The position numbers and the translations under genes are program-made. Shown here piece after piece: positions 27,180 through 40,854 of a stretch of DNA of 61,271 bases; within the stretch, counting starts at the first letter, position 1; each line of letters starts with the position of its first letter. A model generated the notes under the pieces. It was not told the DNA's origin. It saw only the letters and a list, made by a program, of their open reading frames with translations, and ran no database searches. This DNA comes from Candidatus Phelpsiimicrobium noxiivivens. Lineage in GTDB: Bacteria; Omnitrophota; Gorgyraeia; Velamenicoccales; Velamenicoccaceae. The stretch lies in contig MNVR01000026.1 of NCBI GenBank assembly GCA_001873995.1, forward strand, positions 1-61,271, in the 5' to 3' direction.

Positions 27180-28202
27180 ATGCTAAAGGTTGGCATTATA
27201 GGAGCCAGAGGTTATGCAGGTGAGGAACTCATCGGATTGCTATTAAAGCATCCTGATGCGCGGCTGACATATCTTGCCGCGACGCTGGATAAGGCTATGC
27301 CGATAGACGAGGTATTTCCATCTTTAAAGGGCCTTACAGGCCTTAAATGCGAGAATTTTTCTTACGCAAGAGTTTCAGAAAAGTGCGATCTTTTGTTTTT
27401 GGCGCTGCCTCATACAGTTTCTATGGAAGTCGTGCCTAAATTGGTTAAAATGGGCAAGATGATCATAGATCTGAGCGCGGATTATAGGCTAAAGAATTTT
27501 GGGGTATATAAGCAATGGTATCATAAGACGCACAAAGACAAAAAAAATCTGAAAAAATTTGTTTATGGCCTGCCTGAACTATACCGAGAGTCGATCAGGA
27601 AGTCGTCTCTCGTTGCAAATCCCGGATGCTATCCTACCGCGTCAATCTTAGGGATAGTGCCAGCGCTTGTTTCAGGCTTGGCTGACCCGGATAGTATTAT
27701 TATTGATGCCAAGTCAGGCGTATCCGGGGCTGGCAAGAAAACGACTCTGGATTTTTCTTTTTGTGAACTTAACGGGAATTTTAAAGGTTATAAATTTAAC
27801 ATTCATCAGCATTCTCCGGAGATCGATCAGGAGCTATCCAAAGTATCTTCATCTAAGGTCAATGTCGTATTTTGTCCGCATCTTATGCCTGTAAAGCGCG
27901 GGATCTACGCGACGATCTATATCCGTATTAAAGACCATGTTGCAGCCGATAAGATAGAGAATATTTATAAAAAATTCTACAAACTTGAGCCTTTTGTCAG
28001 GGTCAGAGCCTCATGCAGGCTTCCTGAGCTGAAGGATGTTGTTGGGACTAATTTTTGCGATATAGGGCTTGTTTATGATGAGGCGCGAAAGCTTCTTATT
28101 GTGGCTTGCGTTATTGACAATCTTATCAAGGGCGCGTCGGGCCAGGCTGTGCAAAATATGAATATTATGTGTGGTTTTAGTGAAAGGACAGCTCTACTAT
28201 GA
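27180..28202 (+). CDS. argC: N-acetyl-gamma-glutamyl-phosphate reductase
   Basis: A 340-residue ArgC. GARGYAGEEL (8-17) binds NADPH, and catalytic C150 sits in NPGCYPTA. It reduces N-acetylglutamyl phosphate, the third arginine step. AAAGGAG lies upstream of the ATG. The stop overlaps the argJ start (ATGA), opening a seven-gene block argC-J-B-D-F-G-H that holds the pathway from glutamate to arginine, with ArgJ recycling the acetyl group. Confidence 0.97.
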   Translation: MLKVGIIGARGYAGEELIGLLLKHPDARLTYLAATLDKAMPIDEVFPSLKGLTGLKCENFSYARVSEKCDLLFLALPHTVSMEVVPKLVKMGKMIIDLSADYRLKNFGVYKQWYHKTHKDKKNLKKFVYGLPELYRESIRKSSLVANPGCYPTASILGIVPALVSGLADPDSIIIDAKSGVSGAGKKTTLDFSFCELNGNFKGYKFNIHQHSPEIDQELSKVSSSKVNVVFCPHLMPVKRGIYATIYIRIKDHVAADKIENIYKKFYKLEPFVRVRASCRLPELKDVVGTNFCDIGLVYDEARKLLIVACVIDNLIKGASGQAVQNMNIMCGFSERTALL

Positions 28203-29413
28203 GCTTGCAGTTTAATTCTGGTATTCTCCCTATTGGATTTAAGGCCTGTGGTATTGCGGCAAAAATAAAAAAAAGTGGCAAAAAAGACCTGGCGCTTTTT
28301 TATTCTTCGCGGCCATGTGCCGCGGCTGGCCTGTTCACATCTAATTGCATTAAGGCCGCGCCCCTTGAGATCAGCCTGCGGCATCTAAAGAACAGGAGTC
28401 TTAAGGCTGTCATTGTTAACAGCGGTAATGCCAATTGTATGACCGGTCGACAGGGTTTGTTTGACGCCATAGTTACAACACAGCTTGTTGCCCGGAGCTT
28501 GAAAATAGACCCGGGGCAAGTCTTGGTATCTTCTACAGGTATCATCGGAAAACCTCTTCCTATGGAGAAAATAAAGGCAGCGGTTCCAATTTTGGCCAAG
28601 AAGCTTTCTATCAAAGGGTTATCCGATGCCGCTTCCGCTATTTTGACAACGGATACTTTTCAAAAACAGGTTACAAAGATAATACAGATAGGCTCGAGAA
28701 GAGTGGTCATTTCAGGTGTCGCTAAGGGCGCGGGCATGATAGCGCCCCAAATGAAGGCCTGCCCGGCAGGCAGGCCTGCTACTATGCTCGCTTATATTTT
28801 TACGGATGCCACTGTGACAAAGCATGTTTTAAAGAAAGCGCTTAAAGACGCGGTTGATGTTTCTTTTAATGCTATTACTATAGATGGCTGTATGAGCACT
28901 AACGACACCGTTGTTGCCATGGCTAATGGCGCATCCGATAGCGCGCCTATTAAAAATAACACTGCCGGTGAGATTACTTTTTGTCTTGCCCTTAAAGAAG
29001 TCTGCCTGGCATTGGCTAAGATGATCGTGCATGACGCTGAGGGAGCTACCAAGTTCATTGAGATAAGGGTCAAGGGAGCGGTTACATATCTTTCCGCGAA
29101 ACATCTTGCTTTTAGCGTAGCCAATTCCAATCTTTTTAAGTGCGCGATGTTCGGCTCTGACCCTAATTGGGGCAGGATCGCAGCTGCGTTAGGCTCTATT
29201 CCATCGGCATTAAAAGCCGAAAAGCTGGACATTGATATGAATAAAAAGCCTGTTTTCAGGAATGGTAAACCCGTCCCCATTAAAAATAATAATTTTTTAC
29301 GTGGCAGTAACGTGTTGGTAGATATTGATCTGCATGCAGGAAGAGCAAAGGCTTGCGTTTATACATCGGATCTATCTTACGGGTATGTGAGAATTAACGC
29401 GGATTATAATTAA
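28199..29413 (+). CDS. argJ: Ornithine acetyltransferase ArgJ with an insertion at its self-cleavage site
   Basis: A 404-residue ArgJ, which moves the acetyl group from N-acetylornithine to glutamate. The proenzyme cleaves itself at an Ala-Thr bond and the new N-terminal Thr is the nucleophile. Family sequence reads GMI-x-PNM-ATML; here it reads KGAGMIAPQM, then eight extra residues KACPAGRP (186-193), then ATML with T195. The insertion is encoded by a 24-base palindrome-rich unit at 28754-28777 related to the repeats in the rRNA spacer. The rest of the protein looks intact (TIDGCMSTNDT, GSDPNWGRIAAA). No argA or argE is nearby, so function is probably retained. Confidence 0.93.
   Translation: MSLQFNSGILPIGFKACGIAAKIKKSGKKDLALFYSSRPCAAAGLFTSNCIKAAPLEISLRHLKNRSLKAVIVNSGNANCMTGRQGLFDAIVTTQLVARSLKIDPGQVLVSSTGIIGKPLPMEKIKAAVPILAKKLSIKGLSDAASAILTTDTFQKQVTKIIQIGSRRVVISGVAKGAGMIAPQMKACPAGRPATMLAYIFTDATVTKHVLKKALKDAVDVSFNAITIDGCMSTNDTVVAMANGASDSAPIKNNTAGEITFCLALKEVCLALAKMIVHDAEGATKFIEIRVKGAVTYLSAKHLAFSVANSNLFKCAMFGSDPNWGRIAAALGSIPSALKAEKLDIDMNKKPVFRNGKPVPIKNNNFLRGSNVLVDIDLHAGRAKACVYTSDLSYGYVRINADYN
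28754..28777 (+). repeat. 24-nt GC palindrome inserted in argJ
   Basis: An AAGGCCTGCC...GGCCT unit, a multiple of three, lies exactly between the codons for the conserved Met and Ala-Thr of the ArgJ cleavage motif. It resembles the CCTGCCTGCC...GGCAGG units at 2019-2073. Confidence 0.7.
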
Positions 29414-29531: not shown

Positions 29532-30392
29532 ATGGATGAAGCTATAAAAAAGGCTGAAGTTTTAATAGAAGCGCTCCCTTATATAAGAGAGTTTCGCAAG
29601 AAAGTTTTTGTTATTAAGTATGGCGGAAGTATTTTAAGTGAAGACTCTATCCGTAAGGGTGTTCTGGAAGACCTGGTTTTTTTAAGTTTCATGGGTATAA
29701 AGACGGTCCTCGTTCATGGAGGCGGGCCTAATATTTCAGAGAAGTTAAAGAAGCTTGGTAAAAAGACGGAATTTGTGGACGGCATGAGGGTAACTGATTC
29801 TCAAACGCTGCTTGTGGTTGAAGAAGAACTTAATGAATTGAATAAATTGCTTGTTAATGATATAAAAAAAATAGGAGGCCAGGCAGTCGGCCTTAGCGGT
29901 AAAGACCATGGCATCATTAGATCAAAGAAGCTGAACGGCCAGCCGGATCTGGGATTTGTTGGAGTCGTTGCTCAAGTTAATAAAGAATTGATAGAAAAAG
30001 AATTGAAAGCAAGCTCTATAGTCGTGATATCGCCTATGGGTGTTGATGATGAAAGAATAGTCTATAATATTAACGCGGATGAGGCCGCGTCGCATATCGC
30101 GGCGGTTTTTGAAGCAGAGAAGTTCGTTTTGTTGACGAATGTGCGGGGTGTTATGAGAGACCCTGAGAACAACGAATCACTTATAGGCAGTTTACGCGTA
30201 GACGACATAAATACGCTCATAGATCAGAATGTGATCCAGTCTGGGATGATACCTAAGGTGAATGCCTGTCTTGACGCTTTAAAGGGGAATGTTAAAAAGA
30301 CCCATATTATAGACGCGCGCATTCCTCACGCGCTCTTGCTTGAGATCTTTACTGATCAGGGCGTTGGAACGGAGATAGTGAATAATTTTTAG
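29532..30392 (+). CDS. argB: Acetylglutamate kinase
   Basis: A 286-residue amino-acid kinase that phosphorylates N-acetylglutamate. VIKYGGSIL near 28-36, VLVHGGGPNIS, and the C-terminal NINADEAASHIA and GMIPKVNACLDAL motifs are present. The extra N-terminal helix before the first strand (residues 1-25) is the feature of the hexameric, arginine-inhibited form, so feedback control by arginine is likely. This is an inference from length and layout. Confidence 0.96.
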   Translation: MDEAIKKAEVLIEALPYIREFRKKVFVIKYGGSILSEDSIRKGVLEDLVFLSFMGIKTVLVHGGGPNISEKLKKLGKKTEFVDGMRVTDSQTLLVVEEELNELNKLLVNDIKKIGGQAVGLSGKDHGIIRSKKLNGQPDLGFVGVVAQVNKELIEKELKASSIVVISPMGVDDERIVYNINADEAASHIAAVFEAEKFVLLTNVRGVMRDPENNESLIGSLRVDDINTLIDQNVIQSGMIPKVNACLDALKGNVKKTHIIDARIPHALLLEIFTDQGVGTEIVNNF

Positions 30393-30483: not shown

Positions 30484-31689
30484 ATGACTAAGCAAGATAT
30501 TTTTGAAGCTTACGAAAAGTATATCATGCCGACGTATACGAAGATGCCTTATATCTTCGTTAAAGGCAAAGGCAGTAAGCTTTATGATATAGACGGCAAA
30601 GAATACCTGGATTTTTTTCCGGGGTGGGGAGTAGGCAATGTCGGCCATTGTCATCCTGCGGTGATGTGCGCGGTACGGGATCAGGTGGCAAAGCTTATTC
30701 ATTTGCCTAATAACTATTACCATCCGGCTCAGGCTAAACTAGCTGCTGAGATAATCCGCCTGTCTTTTCCTGGAAAGGTATTTTTCTCTAATTCGGGAGC
30801 TGAGGCGAATGAGGCGGCTATAAAGCTTGCGCGGGCATTTGGTTCAAAGGATACGCCCCAGCCACGGTATGAGATCATTACTTTTGACAATGCGTTCCAT
30901 GGACGGACTTTGGCTACTATAACAGCTACTGGCCAAAAAAAGTACAGCCGGGGTTTTGAACCGTTGGTGGAAGGATTTAAGACCAATATGGCTTTGAATG
31001 ATCTTAGCTCTTTAGAGAAAGCGATCACGCGAAATTCTGTTGCTATACTTATGGAGGTCGTCCAAGGCGAAGGCGGCATAAATGTAGCTGACGTTGATTT
31101 TATGCGTAAGGTAAGAAAGTTATGCGATGAACGCAAGATGTTATTGATCATTGATGAGGTACAGACTGGTGTGGGCCGGACGGCCAAGATGTTCGGATTC
31201 CAGCATTACGGTATCACACCCGATATCATTACGCTTGCTAAATCATTAGGCGGAGGCCTGCCTATAGGGTGTATGGTCGCTAAAACTGATATAGCTGATA
31301 TTTTACAGCCAGGTATGCATGCGTCTACATTCGGAGGCAGCCCTATAGTCTGTAAGGCTGCTTTAGGCGTATTGAAGGCGATAGTAAAAGAAAAAATGCT
31401 AAGCAACGCGTCTAAGATGTCGCCGTATATTTTCGAGAAGCTGGATGTTCTAAAGAATAAATATAAAGTGATAAGGTCGGTCCGCGGGTTGGGGCTTATG
31501 ATAGGTATTGAGCTTGATATTAAAGGAAAAGAAGTGGTGGAGCTTTGCCTAAAGCGCGGGCTATTGATCAATTGCACGCACGATACGGTCCTGCGGCTTA
31601 TGCCGGCGTTGAACGTGACTAAGCGGCAGATAGACGCGGCGATAAGAATACTAGATAAAGTTTTGGAGGATATCGACGATGCCAGTTAA
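30484..31689 (+). CDS. argD: Acetylornithine aminotransferase
   Basis: A 401-residue class III PLP aminotransferase. K253 in TLAKSLGGGLPIG binds PLP; SNSGAEANEAAIKLAR (102-117) and IIDEVQTGVGRT (222-233) are family signatures. It converts N-acetylglutamate semialdehyde to N-acetylornithine. Some ArgD enzymes also act on N-succinyl-diaminopimelate, but that step is not needed here because DapL is encoded. The end overlaps argF by 11 bases. Confidence 0.95.
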   Translation: MTKQDIFEAYEKYIMPTYTKMPYIFVKGKGSKLYDIDGKEYLDFFPGWGVGNVGHCHPAVMCAVRDQVAKLIHLPNNYYHPAQAKLAAEIIRLSFPGKVFFSNSGAEANEAAIKLARAFGSKDTPQPRYEIITFDNAFHGRTLATITATGQKKYSRGFEPLVEGFKTNMALNDLSSLEKAITRNSVAILMEVVQGEGGINVADVDFMRKVRKLCDERKMLLIIDEVQTGVGRTAKMFGFQHYGITPDIITLAKSLGGGLPIGCMVAKTDIADILQPGMHASTFGGSPIVCKAALGVLKAIVKEKMLSNASKMSPYIFEKLDVLKNKYKVIRSVRGLGLMIGIELDIKGKEVVELCLKRGLLINCTHDTVLRLMPALNVTKRQIDAAIRILDKVLEDIDDAS

Positions 31690-32596
31690 AAAGGATTTTA
31701 TTTCGGTCTCGGATCTTTCTTCTGAAGATATCAATGGGATCTTCAAAAAGACAGATGAACTAAAAAAAAGCAAATTTCAGGATAGTTTAAAAAATAAGGC
31801 TGTAGGCCTTATTTTTCAGAAACCGTCTTTGAGGACACGCGTCTCTTTTCAGGTAGGTGTGTGGCAATTGGGCGGCCAGTGTATGTCTTTGTCTCCAGCT
31901 GAAGTAAACATAGGCGTCCGTGAGACCATTAAAGACGCTGCTTTGACGTTATCGCGTTATCTTGATCTTATCGTGGCCCGCGTTTTCAAGCACAGGGAAG
32001 TAGAAGAACTGGCCCAGTATTCGTTGGTGCCTGTTATTAATGGGTTAAGCGATCTTTTTCATCCATGCCAAGCGTTAGCTGATATTTTTACGCTAAAAGA
32101 AAAACGCGGCGAACTTAAAGGCCTGACGTTAAGTTATATAGGTGATGGTAATAACGTATGTAATTCATTGCTGCAGATAACGAGTATCCTTGGCATCAAT
32201 ATGAAGGTGGCATCGCCTAAAGGCTTCGCGCCTGATATGGATATTTTACATCTATCGCAGGTCCAGGCAGCAAAGACAGGGGCGCGGATCTTAGTAACGC
32301 TTGATCCAAGAGAAGCGGCAAGCAACACAGATGTTCTGTATACCGATGTCTGGGCCAGCATGGGCCAGGAGAAGGATGCGGCCAGACGGGCGAAGATATT
32401 TAAGAAATATCAGATCAATAAAGATCTGGTAGCTTTAGCTAAAAAGAATGTGTTGATCATGCATTGTTTGCCGGCGCACAGAGGCATGGAGATATCAGAT
32501 GATGTGTTGGATAGCTCTAACTCAGTCGTTTTTGATGAGGCGGAGAACCGGCTGCATGTGCAAAAGGCGATCATGCTGAAATTAATCGGAAAATGA
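31679..32596 (+). CDS. argF: Ornithine carbamoyltransferase
   Basis: A 305-residue transcarbamylase. The carbamoyl-phosphate site reads S50-L-R-T-R (usual STRTR, here with Leu), HPCQ is at 128-131 and HCLPAHRG near 262-269 carries the catalytic Cys. It forms citrulline from ornithine. Acetylornithine and putrescine transcarbamylases are relatives; with argJ present, ornithine is the natural substrate. Confidence 0.94.
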   Translation: MPVKKDFISVSDLSSEDINGIFKKTDELKKSKFQDSLKNKAVGLIFQKPSLRTRVSFQVGVWQLGGQCMSLSPAEVNIGVRETIKDAALTLSRYLDLIVARVFKHREVEELAQYSLVPVINGLSDLFHPCQALADIFTLKEKRGELKGLTLSYIGDGNNVCNSLLQITSILGINMKVASPKGFAPDMDILHLSQVQAAKTGARILVTLDPREAASNTDVLYTDVWASMGQEKDAARRAKIFKKYQINKDLVALAKKNVLIMHCLPAHRGMEISDDVLDSSNSVVFDEAENRLHVQKAIMLKLIGK

Positions 32597-32698
32597 TTAC
32601 ACCTGGCCCCTAAAGGAATTGGGCCAGTGTTCGCCCAGTGGCGAAAATTGCGCAGATGTTTCGCTAAATAATATATTAAGGTGCTCAAGGAGGTTATC

Positions 32699-33880
32699 GT
32701 GAAGAAAGTTGTATTAGCTTATTCAGGCGGCTTGGATACTTCCTGCGCCATCAAATGGCTTAAAGATAAGGGTTATGAAGTCATCGCTTATATCGGCGAT
32801 GTAGGCCAGGGTGAAGATTTCGCGCAGGTTGAAAAAAGGGCCTTAAAGACGGGTGCTAAAAAGGTCTATGTCGGTGATCTAAAACAGGAATTTATCGCGG
32901 ATTATATTATTCCTACGCTGCAGGCTAACGCGGCTTATGAAGATAAATATCTTCTGGCTACGGCGTTAACCAGGCCGCTCATCGCCCGGCATTTAGTAGA
33001 AGTGGCTCATAGGGAAAAGGCTCACGCGATAGGCCATGGCTGTACAGGCAAGGGTAACGATCAGGTGCGTTTTGAAGTGACGGCCAATATTCTGGACCCA
33101 AAGCTTGAAATTGTGGCGCCTGTCCGGGAGTGGGAGTTTAGATCAAGGGAAGATGAGGTAGATTACGCTAAGCGTAATAATATTCCTTTGAATGTCACTA
33201 AGAAAAAAGTTTACAGTATAGATAAGAATCTATGGGGCATAAGTATTGAATGCGGCGTATTGGAAGACCCGGATCATGAGCCTACAAAGGATGCTTATCA
33301 GATGACAGTAGCGCCTGAGGACGCGCCTTCAAAACCTACTTATATTGTAATAGGGTTTGATAAGGGTATTCCGGTTTCGATCAATGGAAAAAATATGGAA
33401 GTGTCTGCTCTCATCCGGCAATTGCATGAAGCCGGTGGTAAAAACGGCGTAGGCCGAGTGGATATGGTTGAGAATAGGTTGGTCGGTATCAAGTCGCGCG
33501 AGATATATGAATTTCCAGCGGCGACGTGCCTTTATACGGCTCATAGGGATCTGGAGAGTTTAGTATTAGACAGAGAGTTACTTCATTTTAAGCAGTCTAT
33601 GGAACAAAAATACGCAGAGATAGTCTATTACGGTTTATGGTTCTCTGAGTTAAAAAGAGCCTTAGATGCTTTTATCAAGGAGACTCAAAAGAACGTAACA
33701 GGGGCAGTGCGCCTAAAACTCTACAAAGGTAATTGTATCGTGGTGGGGAGAAGGTCTCCGAAGTCTTTATATAAGGAGTCTTTGGCAACATATACCCAGA
33801 AGGATAAATTTGACCAGAAGCTTGCTGAAGGTTTTATACGGCTTTGGGGATTGCCATATAGCGTAAATCGTGATTCGTAA
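32699..33880 (+). CDS. argG: Argininosuccinate synthase
   Basis: A 393-residue ArgG. VLAYSGGLDTSCAIKWL is the ATP pyrophosphatase P-loop, followed by GHGCTGKGNDQVRFE. It joins citrulline and aspartate. The GTG at 32699 is chosen since AAGGAGG lies just upstream at 32687-32693; the longer frame from GTG 32681 would translate that ribosome site. The gap before it holds stable hairpins (CTGGCCC/GGGCCAG and TTCGCC/GGCGAA). Confidence 0.96.
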   Translation: MKKVVLAYSGGLDTSCAIKWLKDKGYEVIAYIGDVGQGEDFAQVEKRALKTGAKKVYVGDLKQEFIADYIIPTLQANAAYEDKYLLATALTRPLIARHLVEVAHREKAHAIGHGCTGKGNDQVRFEVTANILDPKLEIVAPVREWEFRSREDEVDYAKRNNIPLNVTKKKVYSIDKNLWGISIECGVLEDPDHEPTKDAYQMTVAPEDAPSKPTYIVIGFDKGIPVSINGKNMEVSALIRQLHEAGGKNGVGRVDMVENRLVGIKSREIYEFPAATCLYTAHRDLESLVLDRELLHFKQSMEQKYAEIVYYGLWFSELKRALDAFIKETQKNVTGAVRLKLYKGNCIVVGRRSPKSLYKESLATYTQKDKFDQKLAEGFIRLWGLPYSVNRDS

Positions 33881-33936: not shown

Positions 33937-35292
33937 ATGAGCAAAAAATTGTGGGGTGGCAGGTTCGCTAAAAAGACGCATCCGCTTCTTGAAAAGTTTG
34001 GTTCATCTATAGCGATGGATCACCGTTTGGCTGAGTGTGATCTCATTGGGTCTTTTTTGCACATTCATGTATTGTATGGAGCCAAGCTTATTTCAAAAGC
34101 TGATCTTTCAGCGCTTAAGACTGGGATCAAGTCTTTGCTTTCAGACGTACAAAAAGGTGTATTTAAATATGACGCGTCCAGCGAAGATATCCATACGTGC
34201 CTACAGAACGCGCTTGAACAAAAGTTGGGTAAAGTGGTTGATAAATTGCAGACTGCCCGTTCAAGAAATGACCAGGTTGTTTTTGACACAAAGGCTTATT
34301 GTATGCAGGAAGCCCTCGCACTGCATAGAACGCTTTTAGAGCTTAACAAAAGTTTAAAAATGCTTAGAGAGCGATATTTGTCCTTAGTCATTCCTGGTTA
34401 TACGCACATGCAGCACGCGCAGCCAGTTTATTTTAAGGATCATCTGGGAGCGTATGAAGCCATGTTTATTGAAGACGCGGCTCGGCTTGAGTGCTTTGCG
34501 GGCCGGCTTGAGCTGACTCTGGGTTCAGGCGCTTTGGCCGGAACACCTATAGCGGCCTCTATCTATAAGTCAGAGATAAAAAAGGCTTTGAAGGAATTAA
34601 AATTAGACGACGCTGTTTTTGAGGTGCTGCCTCCTAAGAACAGCCTGGTTACTGTGGCTGACCGCGATTTTGTAATTGAGCTTATTTCGGTTTTGGCTAT
34701 AGTAGGTATGCATATTTCACGCCTTGCGGAGGATCTTATTCTTTGGTCAACAAAGGAGTTTGATTTTATAGAGATAGGCGATGAATTTTGTACAGGTAGT
34801 TCACTCATGCCGCAGAAGAAAAATCCCGATTCTTTAGAATTGATGCGGGGCGCGAGTGGCATCTTATATGGGAATCTTGTAGCCGTCTTGGTTACGATGA
34901 AGGGGTTGCCACTATCGTATAATAGGGATATGCAGTGGGATAAGCAGCCGCTTTTTTCTTCGCTTGATATAGCAAGGTATGAAGTCAATATACTCTGTCA
35001 ACTTTTGCGGTCCATAAAGATAAAGAAGATAAGCGTGGACAGGCAGCTTCAGGATGAATCGCTTTATGCCACAGATCTGGCGTATTACCTTGTAACTCAA
35101 GGCGTGTCGTTTAAGGTGGCGCATGAAAGTGTTGGTAAGCTTATACGGTTCTCTTTATCGATGAATAAAAAGATAAAATTTATGAGCGATGGTGAATTGA
35201 AAAAGTTTTCTCCAAGCTTTGATAAAGAAGAAGTATTGAAGATATTGGATCCTGTTTTTTCAGTTTCTTCCAAAAAGTCGGTAAGAAGATAG
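33937..35292 (+). CDS. argH: Argininosuccinate lyase
   Basis: A 451-residue fumarase/aspartase-superfamily lyase. WGGRF near the N-terminus, SRNDQV, TPGYTHMQHAQP-like segment (IPGYTHMQHAQPV) and the mobile catalytic loop GSSLMPQKKNPD are present. It releases arginine and fumarate, completing the pathway. GGAGG six bases before the ATG is the ribosome site. Confidence 0.97.
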   Translation: MSKKLWGGRFAKKTHPLLEKFGSSIAMDHRLAECDLIGSFLHIHVLYGAKLISKADLSALKTGIKSLLSDVQKGVFKYDASSEDIHTCLQNALEQKLGKVVDKLQTARSRNDQVVFDTKAYCMQEALALHRTLLELNKSLKMLRERYLSLVIPGYTHMQHAQPVYFKDHLGAYEAMFIEDAARLECFAGRLELTLGSGALAGTPIAASIYKSEIKKALKELKLDDAVFEVLPPKNSLVTVADRDFVIELISVLAIVGMHISRLAEDLILWSTKEFDFIEIGDEFCTGSSLMPQKKNPDSLELMRGASGILYGNLVAVLVTMKGLPLSYNRDMQWDKQPLFSSLDIARYEVNILCQLLRSIKIKKISVDRQLQDESLYATDLAYYLVTQGVSFKVAHESVGKLIRFSLSMNKKIKFMSDGELKKFSPSFDKEEVLKILDPVFSVSSKKSVRR

Positions 35293-35352: not shown

Positions 35353-36621
35353 ATGCACGATTTCAAATACCGGAATAATGAGCTTTATTGTGAAAGTGTG
35401 CGTATTGAGGATGTGGCTTTAAAGTTTTCAACGCCTTTGTATATCTACAGTCATAAAACTCTTATAGGCCGCTACCTTAAATTAAAGAGAGCGTTCGCCT
35501 CCATTGATCCTTTGATCTGTTTTTCCGTTAAATCAAGCTCTAATCTTTCATTATTAAAAGCTTTGGCAGATAAAGGTGCTGGGCTGGATATTGTGTCAGG
35601 AGGGGAGCTATATCGCGCTCAAAAGATAAAAGCTAACCCGAAAACAATAGTTTACGCGAGCGTAGGCAAGACGAGGGAAGAGATAGAGGCGGCCATAAGA
35701 TATGGCATTCTTTTTTTCAACGTTGAATCGCTTCAGGAACTTGGTTTGATAAGCGAGGCAGCGAGCGTTTTAAAAAAAGACGTGCGCGTATGCGTGCGCA
35801 TTAATCCTAATGTAGACCCCCACACGCACCGTTATATCACGACAGGTACGATGGAGACCAAATTCGGGGTTGATTTTGATACCGCGCGCATAATCTTTTT
35901 AAATAAGGAAAATTTCAAAAGGGTCCACATCCTAGGTTTGCACGTTCACATTGGATCTCAGATAACGCAAGTAGCTCCTTTTCTGGCAGCATTGCGCAGG
36001 GTAATCGATCTTATTAATGCGTTAAAAAAGATGGGTATTCGTCTGGAGTGGCTAAACATAGGGGGCGGGCTCGGGATCATTTATAAGGAAGAAAATCCTC
36101 AGACTGCTGAGCAATTTGCTTCGCGCATCGTGCCTTTGTTGAAGAAGACGGGGTTAAAGATCATTTTAGAGCCTGGCCGTTTTATTGTAGGCCCAGCAGG
36201 TATTTTGGTGACTCGTGTCATTTACGTTAAAGACTCGTCCTTAAAAAGATTTGTAGTGGTAGATGCTGGGATGAATGATCTGATAAGGCCTTCTTTATAT
36301 GGTGCTTATCATGAAATACTACCTGTAAAAAGGACGGAATACGGAAGGCGGAATACGGAATACGGGAAAAAATCAGATGTTGTGGGGCCGATATGCGAAA
36401 GTGGGGATTTTTTGGCTAAAGATAGAGACCTGCCAATTTTAGCACCTGGTACATTTTTAGCTTGTATGGGAGCGGGGGCATATGGTTTTTCAATGTCGTC
36501 TAATTATAATTCAAGGCGCAAGGCAGCGGAAGTTTTGGTCTCGGGCAAAAAATTTTATTTGATCCGTGAACGTGAAAAATTGAGCGACCTCGTACGGCAC
36601 GAGAAGGTTGTTAAGCTATAG
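35353..36621 (+). CDS. lysA: Diaminopimelate decarboxylase
   Basis: A 422-residue fold-III PLP enzyme that makes lysine from meso-diaminopimelate. FSVKSSSNLSLLK contains the PLP Lys; HVHIGSQI, the glycine loop GGGLGI, EPGRFIVG and CESGDF follow in order. Residues about 327-340 (start RTEYGRRNTEYG) are an in-frame insertion encoded by tandem GGAATACGG words at 36331-36370, just before DVVGPICESGD. The catalytic cysteine segment is untouched, so function is likely. It opens the lysine block lysA-dapF-dapA-dapB-dapL. Confidence 0.95.
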   Translation: MHDFKYRNNELYCESVRIEDVALKFSTPLYIYSHKTLIGRYLKLKRAFASIDPLICFSVKSSSNLSLLKALADKGAGLDIVSGGELYRAQKIKANPKTIVYASVGKTREEIEAAIRYGILFFNVESLQELGLISEAASVLKKDVRVCVRINPNVDPHTHRYITTGTMETKFGVDFDTARIIFLNKENFKRVHILGLHVHIGSQITQVAPFLAALRRVIDLINALKKMGIRLEWLNIGGGLGIIYKEENPQTAEQFASRIVPLLKKTGLKIILEPGRFIVGPAGILVTRVIYVKDSSLKRFVVVDAGMNDLIRPSLYGAYHEILPVKRTEYGRRNTEYGKKSDVVGPICESGDFLAKDRDLPILAPGTFLACMGAGAYGFSMSSNYNSRRKAAEVLVSGKKFYLIREREKLSDLVRHEKVVKL

Positions 36622-38954: not shown

Positions 38955-39686
38955 ATGATCAGACTAGGCGTTAGCGGCGCGTTGGGTAAAATGGGCGCAA
39001 GGGTCTTGTCTTTGGCTTCACAGGACAAAGATTTTAGGGTTATTTTAGCTCTGGAACGTTTAAGCCATCCGCAGATAGGTGAGAAAATAGCCGGCGCAGA
39101 AGTTGTCTGTGACCGCGAGATGATCAAGGATATTGATTGCCTTGTTGATTTTACCGCGCCAGAGGCAGCCCTTATTAATATAGAATATTGCCTTAAGTTC
39201 AAAAAAGCTATTGTCGTAGGTACAACAGGTTTTCTACAAGAACAAAAAGACCGTATTGACGCGGCTTCAAAAAAAATACCGATCGTTCTTTCGCCCAATA
39301 TGTCTATCGGAGTCAATCTTCTTTTTCAACTTGTACGCGATACAGCAGTCCGGCTTCCATCAGACTATAAAATAAATATTACGGAAGCGCATCATAGCCA
39401 TAAGAAAGACGCGCCTTCAGGCACGGCTAAATTCTTAGCCCAGATCGTGAAGGAAGAGCGTATTGAGGCAGACGTGGATATTAAATCCATACGCGAGGGT
39501 GAGATCGTAGGTGACCATGAGGTAGTTTTTGACAGTCCATGGGATACTATCAAACTTTCTCATTCGGCGAAGACCAGGGATATATTTGCTAAAGGCGCTT
39601 TGGAAGCTGCAAGATTTTTAGTGAAAAAAAAGAGCGGGATCTATTGTATGGAAGATGTGCTTAAAAAAGGAAAAAATGGAGATTAA
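38955..39686 (+). CDS. dapB: 4-hydroxy-tetrahydrodipicolinate reductase
   Basis: A 243-residue DapB. GVSGALGKMGARV binds the pyridine nucleotide, VVGTTGF and the catalytic ITEAHHSHKKDAPSGTA segment are clear. ATG 38955 is preferred over 38943 because GGAG sits seven bases upstream. It reduces the DapA product to tetrahydrodipicolinate. Its end overlaps dapL by 11 bases. Confidence 0.96.
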   Translation: MIRLGVSGALGKMGARVLSLASQDKDFRVILALERLSHPQIGEKIAGAEVVCDREMIKDIDCLVDFTAPEAALINIEYCLKFKKAIVVGTTGFLQEQKDRIDAASKKIPIVLSPNMSIGVNLLFQLVRDTAVRLPSDYKINITEAHHSHKKDAPSGTAKFLAQIVKEERIEADVDIKSIREGEIVGDHEVVFDSPWDTIKLSHSAKTRDIFAKGALEAARFLVKKKSGIYCMEDVLKKGKNGD

Positions 39687-40854
39687 AATCTCAAAAAAGC
39701 TCGAAAGCCTGCCGCCTTATCTGTTCGCTCAGATAGATGCTGCCAAGAGGAAGGCAAGACAGGAAGGCAGAAATATCATTGACTTAGGGGTAGGCGATCC
39801 GGATATTCCGACACCGCCATTTGTAATAGATAAGTTATACGAGGCAGCAAAGGATCCAAAGAACCACCGCTACGCGCTTGACCAGGGGTGCCCTGAGTTA
39901 AGGCAGGCAATAGTTGATTGGTATAAACAGAGATTTAATGTTGGCCTGGACCCGGAAAAAGAGGTACTTCCTTTGATAGGTTCAAAAGAAGGTATCGCGC
40001 ATTTGCCTGTCGCTCTTATTGACAAGGGAGATGTGGTGTTTGTGCCTGACCCTGGTTATCCACCCTACAGTAACGCGACTATCCTGGCAGAAGGAAAACC
40101 TCAGAGTATGGCGCTTCGGCAAAGCAACGCGTTTTTGCCTGATCTGGACAGGATCTCTGAAAAAGTCGCCGAAAAGGCAAGGCTTATGTTCCTGAATTTT
40201 CCAAATAATCCTACTGCCGCGACTGCTGATAAAGGGTTCTTTGAAAAGGCTGTCGCTTTCGCGTCTAAATTTAACGTTGTTGTAGCCCACGATGCCGCGT
40301 ATTCTGAGATCGCCTTTGACGGTTATAAACCGGCGAGTTTTCTTGAGGTTCCGGGCGCGAAAGATGTCGGAGTTGAATTCCATTCTTTATCAAAGACTTT
40401 TAATATGACGGGCTGGAGAATAGGCTGGGTATGCGGGAATAGCACGGTCGTGTCAGCCTTGGCAAAAGTTAAATCAAACATTGATTCTGGTATTTTTCAG
40501 GCTATTCAAATAGCAGGCATAACCGCGTTGAAAGAGGGCGCATCCGTAATTGAGCAGAACAATAAAATTTACGCGGAGCGTCTCCAGGCCTTTGTTGAAG
40601 GCCTTAATTCCTTAGGCTGGAAGGTTGATAAACCCAAAGCTTCTTTTTACGTTTGGGCTAAGTTGCCCAGAAAAGCTAAATCATCCATTGAATTCTGTCA
40701 GATACTGTTAGACAGGGCTAATATTGTCGCGACTCCCGGTGTCGGGTTCGGTAAATACGGCGAAGGATACGCGCGTTTCGCTATGACAGTTGATAAAGAA
40801 AAGCTGAAAGAAGCCGTTGAGCGCATGAAAGTTTATCTCGTTGACCAGTTTTAG
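39676..40854 (+). CDS. dapL: LL-diaminopimelate aminotransferase
   Basis: A 392-residue class I PLP aminotransferase. K240 in SLSKTFNMTGWRIGW binds PLP; GVGDPDIPTP near 38-47 and FPNNPTAA at 175-182 are typical. DapL converts tetrahydrodipicolinate directly to LL-diaminopimelate, bypassing the acyl steps of DapD, ArgD/DapC and DapE. Overlap with dapB and position between dapB and the rest of the lysine block support DapL over a general aspartate aminotransferase. This route is known from plants, chlamydiae and other PVC bacteria. Confidence 0.9.
   Translation: MEIKISKKLESLPPYLFAQIDAAKRKARQEGRNIIDLGVGDPDIPTPPFVIDKLYEAAKDPKNHRYALDQGCPELRQAIVDWYKQRFNVGLDPEKEVLPLIGSKEGIAHLPVALIDKGDVVFVPDPGYPPYSNATILAEGKPQSMALRQSNAFLPDLDRISEKVAEKARLMFLNFPNNPTAATADKGFFEKAVAFASKFNVVVAHDAAYSEIAFDGYKPASFLEVPGAKDVGVEFHSLSKTFNMTGWRIGWVCGNSTVVSALAKVKSNIDSGIFQAIQIAGITALKEGASVIEQNNKIYAERLQAFVEGLNSLGWKVDKPKASFYVWAKLPRKAKSSIEFCQILLDRANIVATPGVGFGKYGEGYARFAMTVDKEKLKEAVERMKVYLVDQF

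Follow-up and report, generated by a model that had tools for sequence, protein, structure and literature searches.

The closest described systems are the Rickettsia palindromic elements (RPEs; Ogata et al. 2000) and their Wolbachia equivalents, likewise dispersed palindromes that lie in frame and are tolerated (reviewed in PMC2229807 and PMC10969869). One guanylate kinase of Rickettsia that bears an RPE retained activity, its substrate affinity being altered (PMC2229807). In Ntn hydrolases related to ArgJ, a flexible loop ahead of the nucleophile is unresolved in crystals; specifically, the C-terminal loop of the Taspase1 alpha chain lies right before the nucleophile, is not resolved and is freed by self-cleavage (PMC4790943).

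The insert in argJ of Candidatus Phelpsiimicrobium noxiivivens is a new, very small form of protein-coding palindrome, recurring beside a self-cleavage bond. As with RPEs, copies occur elsewhere in the genome and the insertion is in frame in the interior of a conserved gene. However, RPEs are approximately 100-150 bp long and add tens of residues, whereas the ArgJ element measures 18-24 bp, outside the RPE size range. Moreover, the ArgJ palindromes are unrelated to RPEs in sequence, come from different phyla and have hit one linker beside the autocatalytic bond in four lineages. Compared with REP/RAYT systems, the likeness lies in short, GC-rich, chiefly intergenic palindromes present in dozens of copies and in three Y1_Tnp genes in the genome. 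The difference is that CCTGCC..GGCAGG flanks none of the three Y1_Tnp loci, all of which were inspected, and no mobilising enzyme was found adjoining these palindromes. A long loop, conserved within Taspase1, contrasts with the short ArgJ linker, which varies among lineages.

The window, that is, the whole stretch of 61,271 nt analysed (contig MNVR01000026.1), carries a complete arg operon (argC-J-B-D-F-G-H), as the sequence-only reading had claimed:

27180-28202, forward strand, argC (TIGR01850, 429 bits)
28199-29413, forward strand, argJ, an intact ORF of 404 aa for a bifunctional glutamate N-acetyltransferase/ornithine acetyltransferase (profiles, AlphaFold2 and solved folds)
29532-30392, forward strand, argB (TIGR00761)
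30484-31689, forward strand, argD (TIGR00707)
31679-32596, forward strand, argF (TIGR00658)
32681-33880, forward strand, argG (TIGR00032)
33937-35292, forward strand, argH (TIGR00838)

The argJ product matched the profiles NF003802 (466 bits, cut-off 351) and TIGR00120 (402 bits, cut-off 298) at full length. Its junction reads ...GAGMIAPQM-KACPAGRP-ATMLAYIF.... Because the beta chains in solved ArgJ structures begin at the residue aligned with Thr195, the self-cleavage bond was assigned to Ala194-Thr195; in Mycobacterium tuberculosis ArgJ, self-cleavage occurs at the equivalent Ala199-Thr200 (PMC5887547). All columns invariant among 30 relatives were kept in the window ArgJ. T195, T113-G114, K176-G177, E281-G282 and N400 were invariant in the alignment with relatives, and A194 was nearly so. 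The features around the junction, together with two related copies in the rRNA spacer, are as follows:

28754-28777, forward strand, the KACPAGRP segment, which in comparison with a typical ArgJ places eight residues between PQM and Ala194-Thr195
28755-28777, unstranded, the 23-bp hairpin AGGCCTGCC-CGGCA-GGCAGGCCT, with 9-nt arms (28755-28763 and 28769-28777) and a 5-nt loop
approximately 28757-28774, forward strand, the net 18-nt insertion (ACPAGR, six residues) relative to same-family ArgJs, from codon comparison with L004-L010, its ends not being unique
28778-28783, forward strand, the codons of Ala194 (28778-28780) and Thr195 (28781-28783), with the scissile bond at 28780/28781
2020-2039 and 2054-2072, unstranded, two copies of the CCTGCC..GGCAGG family in the 16S-tRNA spacer

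The argJ hairpin folded as RNA at -20.2 kcal/mol (z -2.6). In the window, the pattern CCTGCCN{0,12}GGCAGG gave five matches where 0.02 were expected. Genome-wide it gave 59 per strand, nested matches included, whereas the reversed-pattern control gave none; the same-family genomes contained 14-65 matches each. Shifted by two bases from the hairpin, the 23 nt at 28757-28779 were identical at 22 of 23 positions to an unlinked copy on contig C22, and the second-closest unlinked copy matched at 21 of 23. Both the palindromic insert beside the scissile bond and its kinship to the rRNA-spacer palindrome, proposed from the sequence alone, thus held. The two spacer copies (2016-2073) are near-tandem, 34 bp apart, each preceded by GCACA or CACA. 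The approximately 35 palindrome sites inspected were mostly intergenic, many of them within longer composite repeats, and argJ was the single clear insertion interior to a conserved protein. Matches in DnaA and a DUF523-like ORF, and perhaps those in HolB and an asparagine-synthase-like protein, appeared to be native codons and were not counted as insertions. Additionally, in two ORFs the GCAGGC palindrome encodes the C-terminal tail, as if the repeat had supplied the gene end: PACRQAGN in a transporter (L048:1501-1520) and GLPVRQAGS in an RsmA-like protein (L070:1501-1521).

The size of the insertion depends on the reference. Most ArgJs have PNM-ATML at the junction, and relative to these the window ArgJ is longer by the 24 nt, or eight residues, originally claimed. 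In its own family, the junction was [M/L]-K-[S/C/H/M/T]-ATM in seven of seven relatives (L004-L010), which suggests that two residues probably stood at the ancestral junction. Because same-family ArgJs already have K-x before Ala-Thr, the net insertion there is 18 nt, or six residues. No empty site was seen in the genus or in close relatives of the window species; the nearest ArgJs were 59-63% identical in protein sequence, a distance at which dS was saturated.

Relatives, which the sequence-only reading had named as a check, showed similar inserts at the same site in three other lineages, whereas all seven same-family members have only two residues there. In genus g166 (Omnitrophota), two genomes carry 24 nt each at the ArgJ junction (GYAEHSRS in G342 and VYTEHSRS in G393), whereas the congener G259 has an empty site (PDM-ATML), with ArgJ identities of 92-94%. 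The repeat CTGAGCNNAGTCGAAG was present in 11 copies in G342 against none for the control. In the tree, the empty G259 grouped with the filled G393 (98/91), so the history in g166 comprised either two gains or one gain followed by a clean loss or exchange. No relevant paper on the CTGAGC..GTCGAAG repeat was found in the published literature.

Two further cases came from scanning GTDB species genomes with a pattern that covered only the ArgJ junction. The Omnitrophota MAG L197, which groups with a different family (97/90), has VYPERSRG at the junction, and GTTTATCCCGAGCGTAGTCGAGGG on another of its contigs was identical to the junction repeat at 22 of 24 positions. L217 (Candidatus Margulisiibacteriota) has APSTGSGQ encoded by CCCTCGACAGGCTCGGGG; the same genome contains this repeat four more times, the control giving no match. 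Because of the scope of the scan, L197 and L217 speak for recurrence and not for preference over other sites. Meanwhile, g166 and L197 fall in different well-supported clades, both separate from the window's family. Taken with the window, the sequences point to at least four independent palindrome events at the same site.

In an alignment of 38 relatives, gathered by homology and not by the presence of an insert, the junction showed seven lengths of 0-16 residues and was non-zero in 16 of the 38. Only two regions varied by more than two residues, the junction and the loop after residue 349, and the frequency of argJ inserts outside the junction is known from these 38 sequences only. The GTDB scan returned at least 68 ArgJ-like matches with 5-15 junction residues, of which one was spurious and lay downstream, and those listed came from Lentisphaeria, Treponema, Endomicrobium, Omnitrophota, Verrucomicrobia and others. 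The 16-residue linker of G050 (L015) was considered as a dispersed-repeat insertion and rejected, its motif being no commoner than the control; it is a local 27-bp duplication (AGLRPAKKM-AGLRH). In a Desulfobacterales ArgJ (L228), CTGTAGATAATATCTACAG encodes an 11-residue linker and is an inverted repeat whose 9-bp arms overlap its centre.

An AlphaFold2 model was built from 36 sequences, all except that of the window taken from the junction scan. Its mean pLDDT was 92.2, with values below 50 only at residues 189-194, and the nearest solved folds were those of the Streptomyces ornithine acetyltransferase (1vz6/1vz8, TM up to 0.93) and also M. tuberculosis ArgJ. The window ArgJ is therefore predicted with confidence to adopt the ornithine-acetyltransferase fold, with disorder confined to 189-194. 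The filled g166 alleles gave dN/dS values of 0.13 (NG86) or 0.24 (YN00), so these insert-bearing alleles are under purifying selection. An insert next to the scissile bond had been expected to be harmful. That expectation found no support in the junction lengths of the 38 relatives, in the scan matches or in the modelled disorder confined to the insert. Sequence and model together suggest that the insertion is most likely harmless to the enzyme, and we infer that the window ArgJ would self-cleave and transfer acetyl groups normally.

We consider it very probable that a dispersed palindrome was inserted in frame into a tolerant linker between the ArgJ alpha and beta chains and that the enzyme still folds and cuts normally. 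A GC-rich, REP/MITE-like palindrome of 23-26 bp would have entered the linker just before the self-cleavage site. Lying between the future chains, the linker would be flexible and accommodate changes in length; the Ala-Thr bond and the catalytic core would fold and cut despite the insert, and after cleavage the added residues would form a slightly longer disordered tail of the alpha chain. The insert is of repeat origin and in frame, the site varies in length, and other repeats have inserted there in parallel; that the palindrome is selfish and its insertion tolerated is the best reading. The empty-site comparison within one genus, with parallels in two phyla, shows that very short selfish palindromes can lengthen a self-cleaving, essential enzyme at a predictable position. 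The cases also extend protein-coding palindromes beyond Rickettsiales, and they supply linkers of differing length and sequence next to an autocatalytic bond, a natural set on which the tolerance of Ntn self-cleavage can be tested directly.

Tolerance of insertions accounts for their location with no need of targeting; a role in targeting or regulation is possible for the palindrome at the linker. That the linker is a preferred and not just a permissive landing site for palindromes, or that the tails they add modulate how fast self-cleavage proceeds, is unlikely. If either proposal were true, unrelated repeats would be repeatedly captured beside the scissile bond.

Somewhat less likely still is that the insert blocks or slows self-cleavage, leaving ArgJ dead or partly so, and that an ArgE-like deacetylase substitutes. 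The absence of argE claimed earlier applied to the operon and not to the genome, in which contig C30 encodes one M20-family ArgE/DapE-like deacylase (239 bits, subfamily cut-off 217.6). In addition, the window contains:

39655-40854, LL-diaminopimelate aminotransferase (NF006756, above cut-off)

The presence of this enzyme suggests that DapE is not needed for lysine, so the C30 deacylase need not be DapE and a backup ArgE is possible. However, the deacylase scored 174 bits, below the acetylornithine-deacetylase equivalog cut-off of 298, the argJ ORF is open with all invariant residues retained, and similar inserts in relatives are maintained by purifying selection.

That the linker simply grew by slippage or a local duplication, its resemblance to the palindrome being coincidental, was judged very unlikely. 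Many ArgJs among the scan matches listed do have non-repeat junction linkers of 5-9 residues, and the G050 linker arose by local duplication; the 22/23 match to unlinked genomic copies and a palindrome family with no control matches argue against such an origin here. Least probable of all is misassembly of a hairpin repeat into argJ, for although the assembly is a draft (39 contigs, 91% complete), the insert preserves the frame and the same type of event recurs at the same codon boundary in three other independently assembled lineages.

Two other repeats of the same genome were also recorded. A different palindrome, AATGAGACAAATC...GATTTGTCTCATT, is present in several copies flanking a Y1_Tnp (RAYT-like) gene (L051:1001-2052; G000 contig C27), and the two look like a REP/RAYT pair. 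Within the window, LysA (lysA, 35353-36621) has KRTEYGRRNTEYGKK at 36337-36360, directly ahead of its VVGPICESGD motif; the segment is encoded by a short tandem repeat, two copies of GAATACGGAA 14 bp apart, and is possibly another in-frame repeat insertion.
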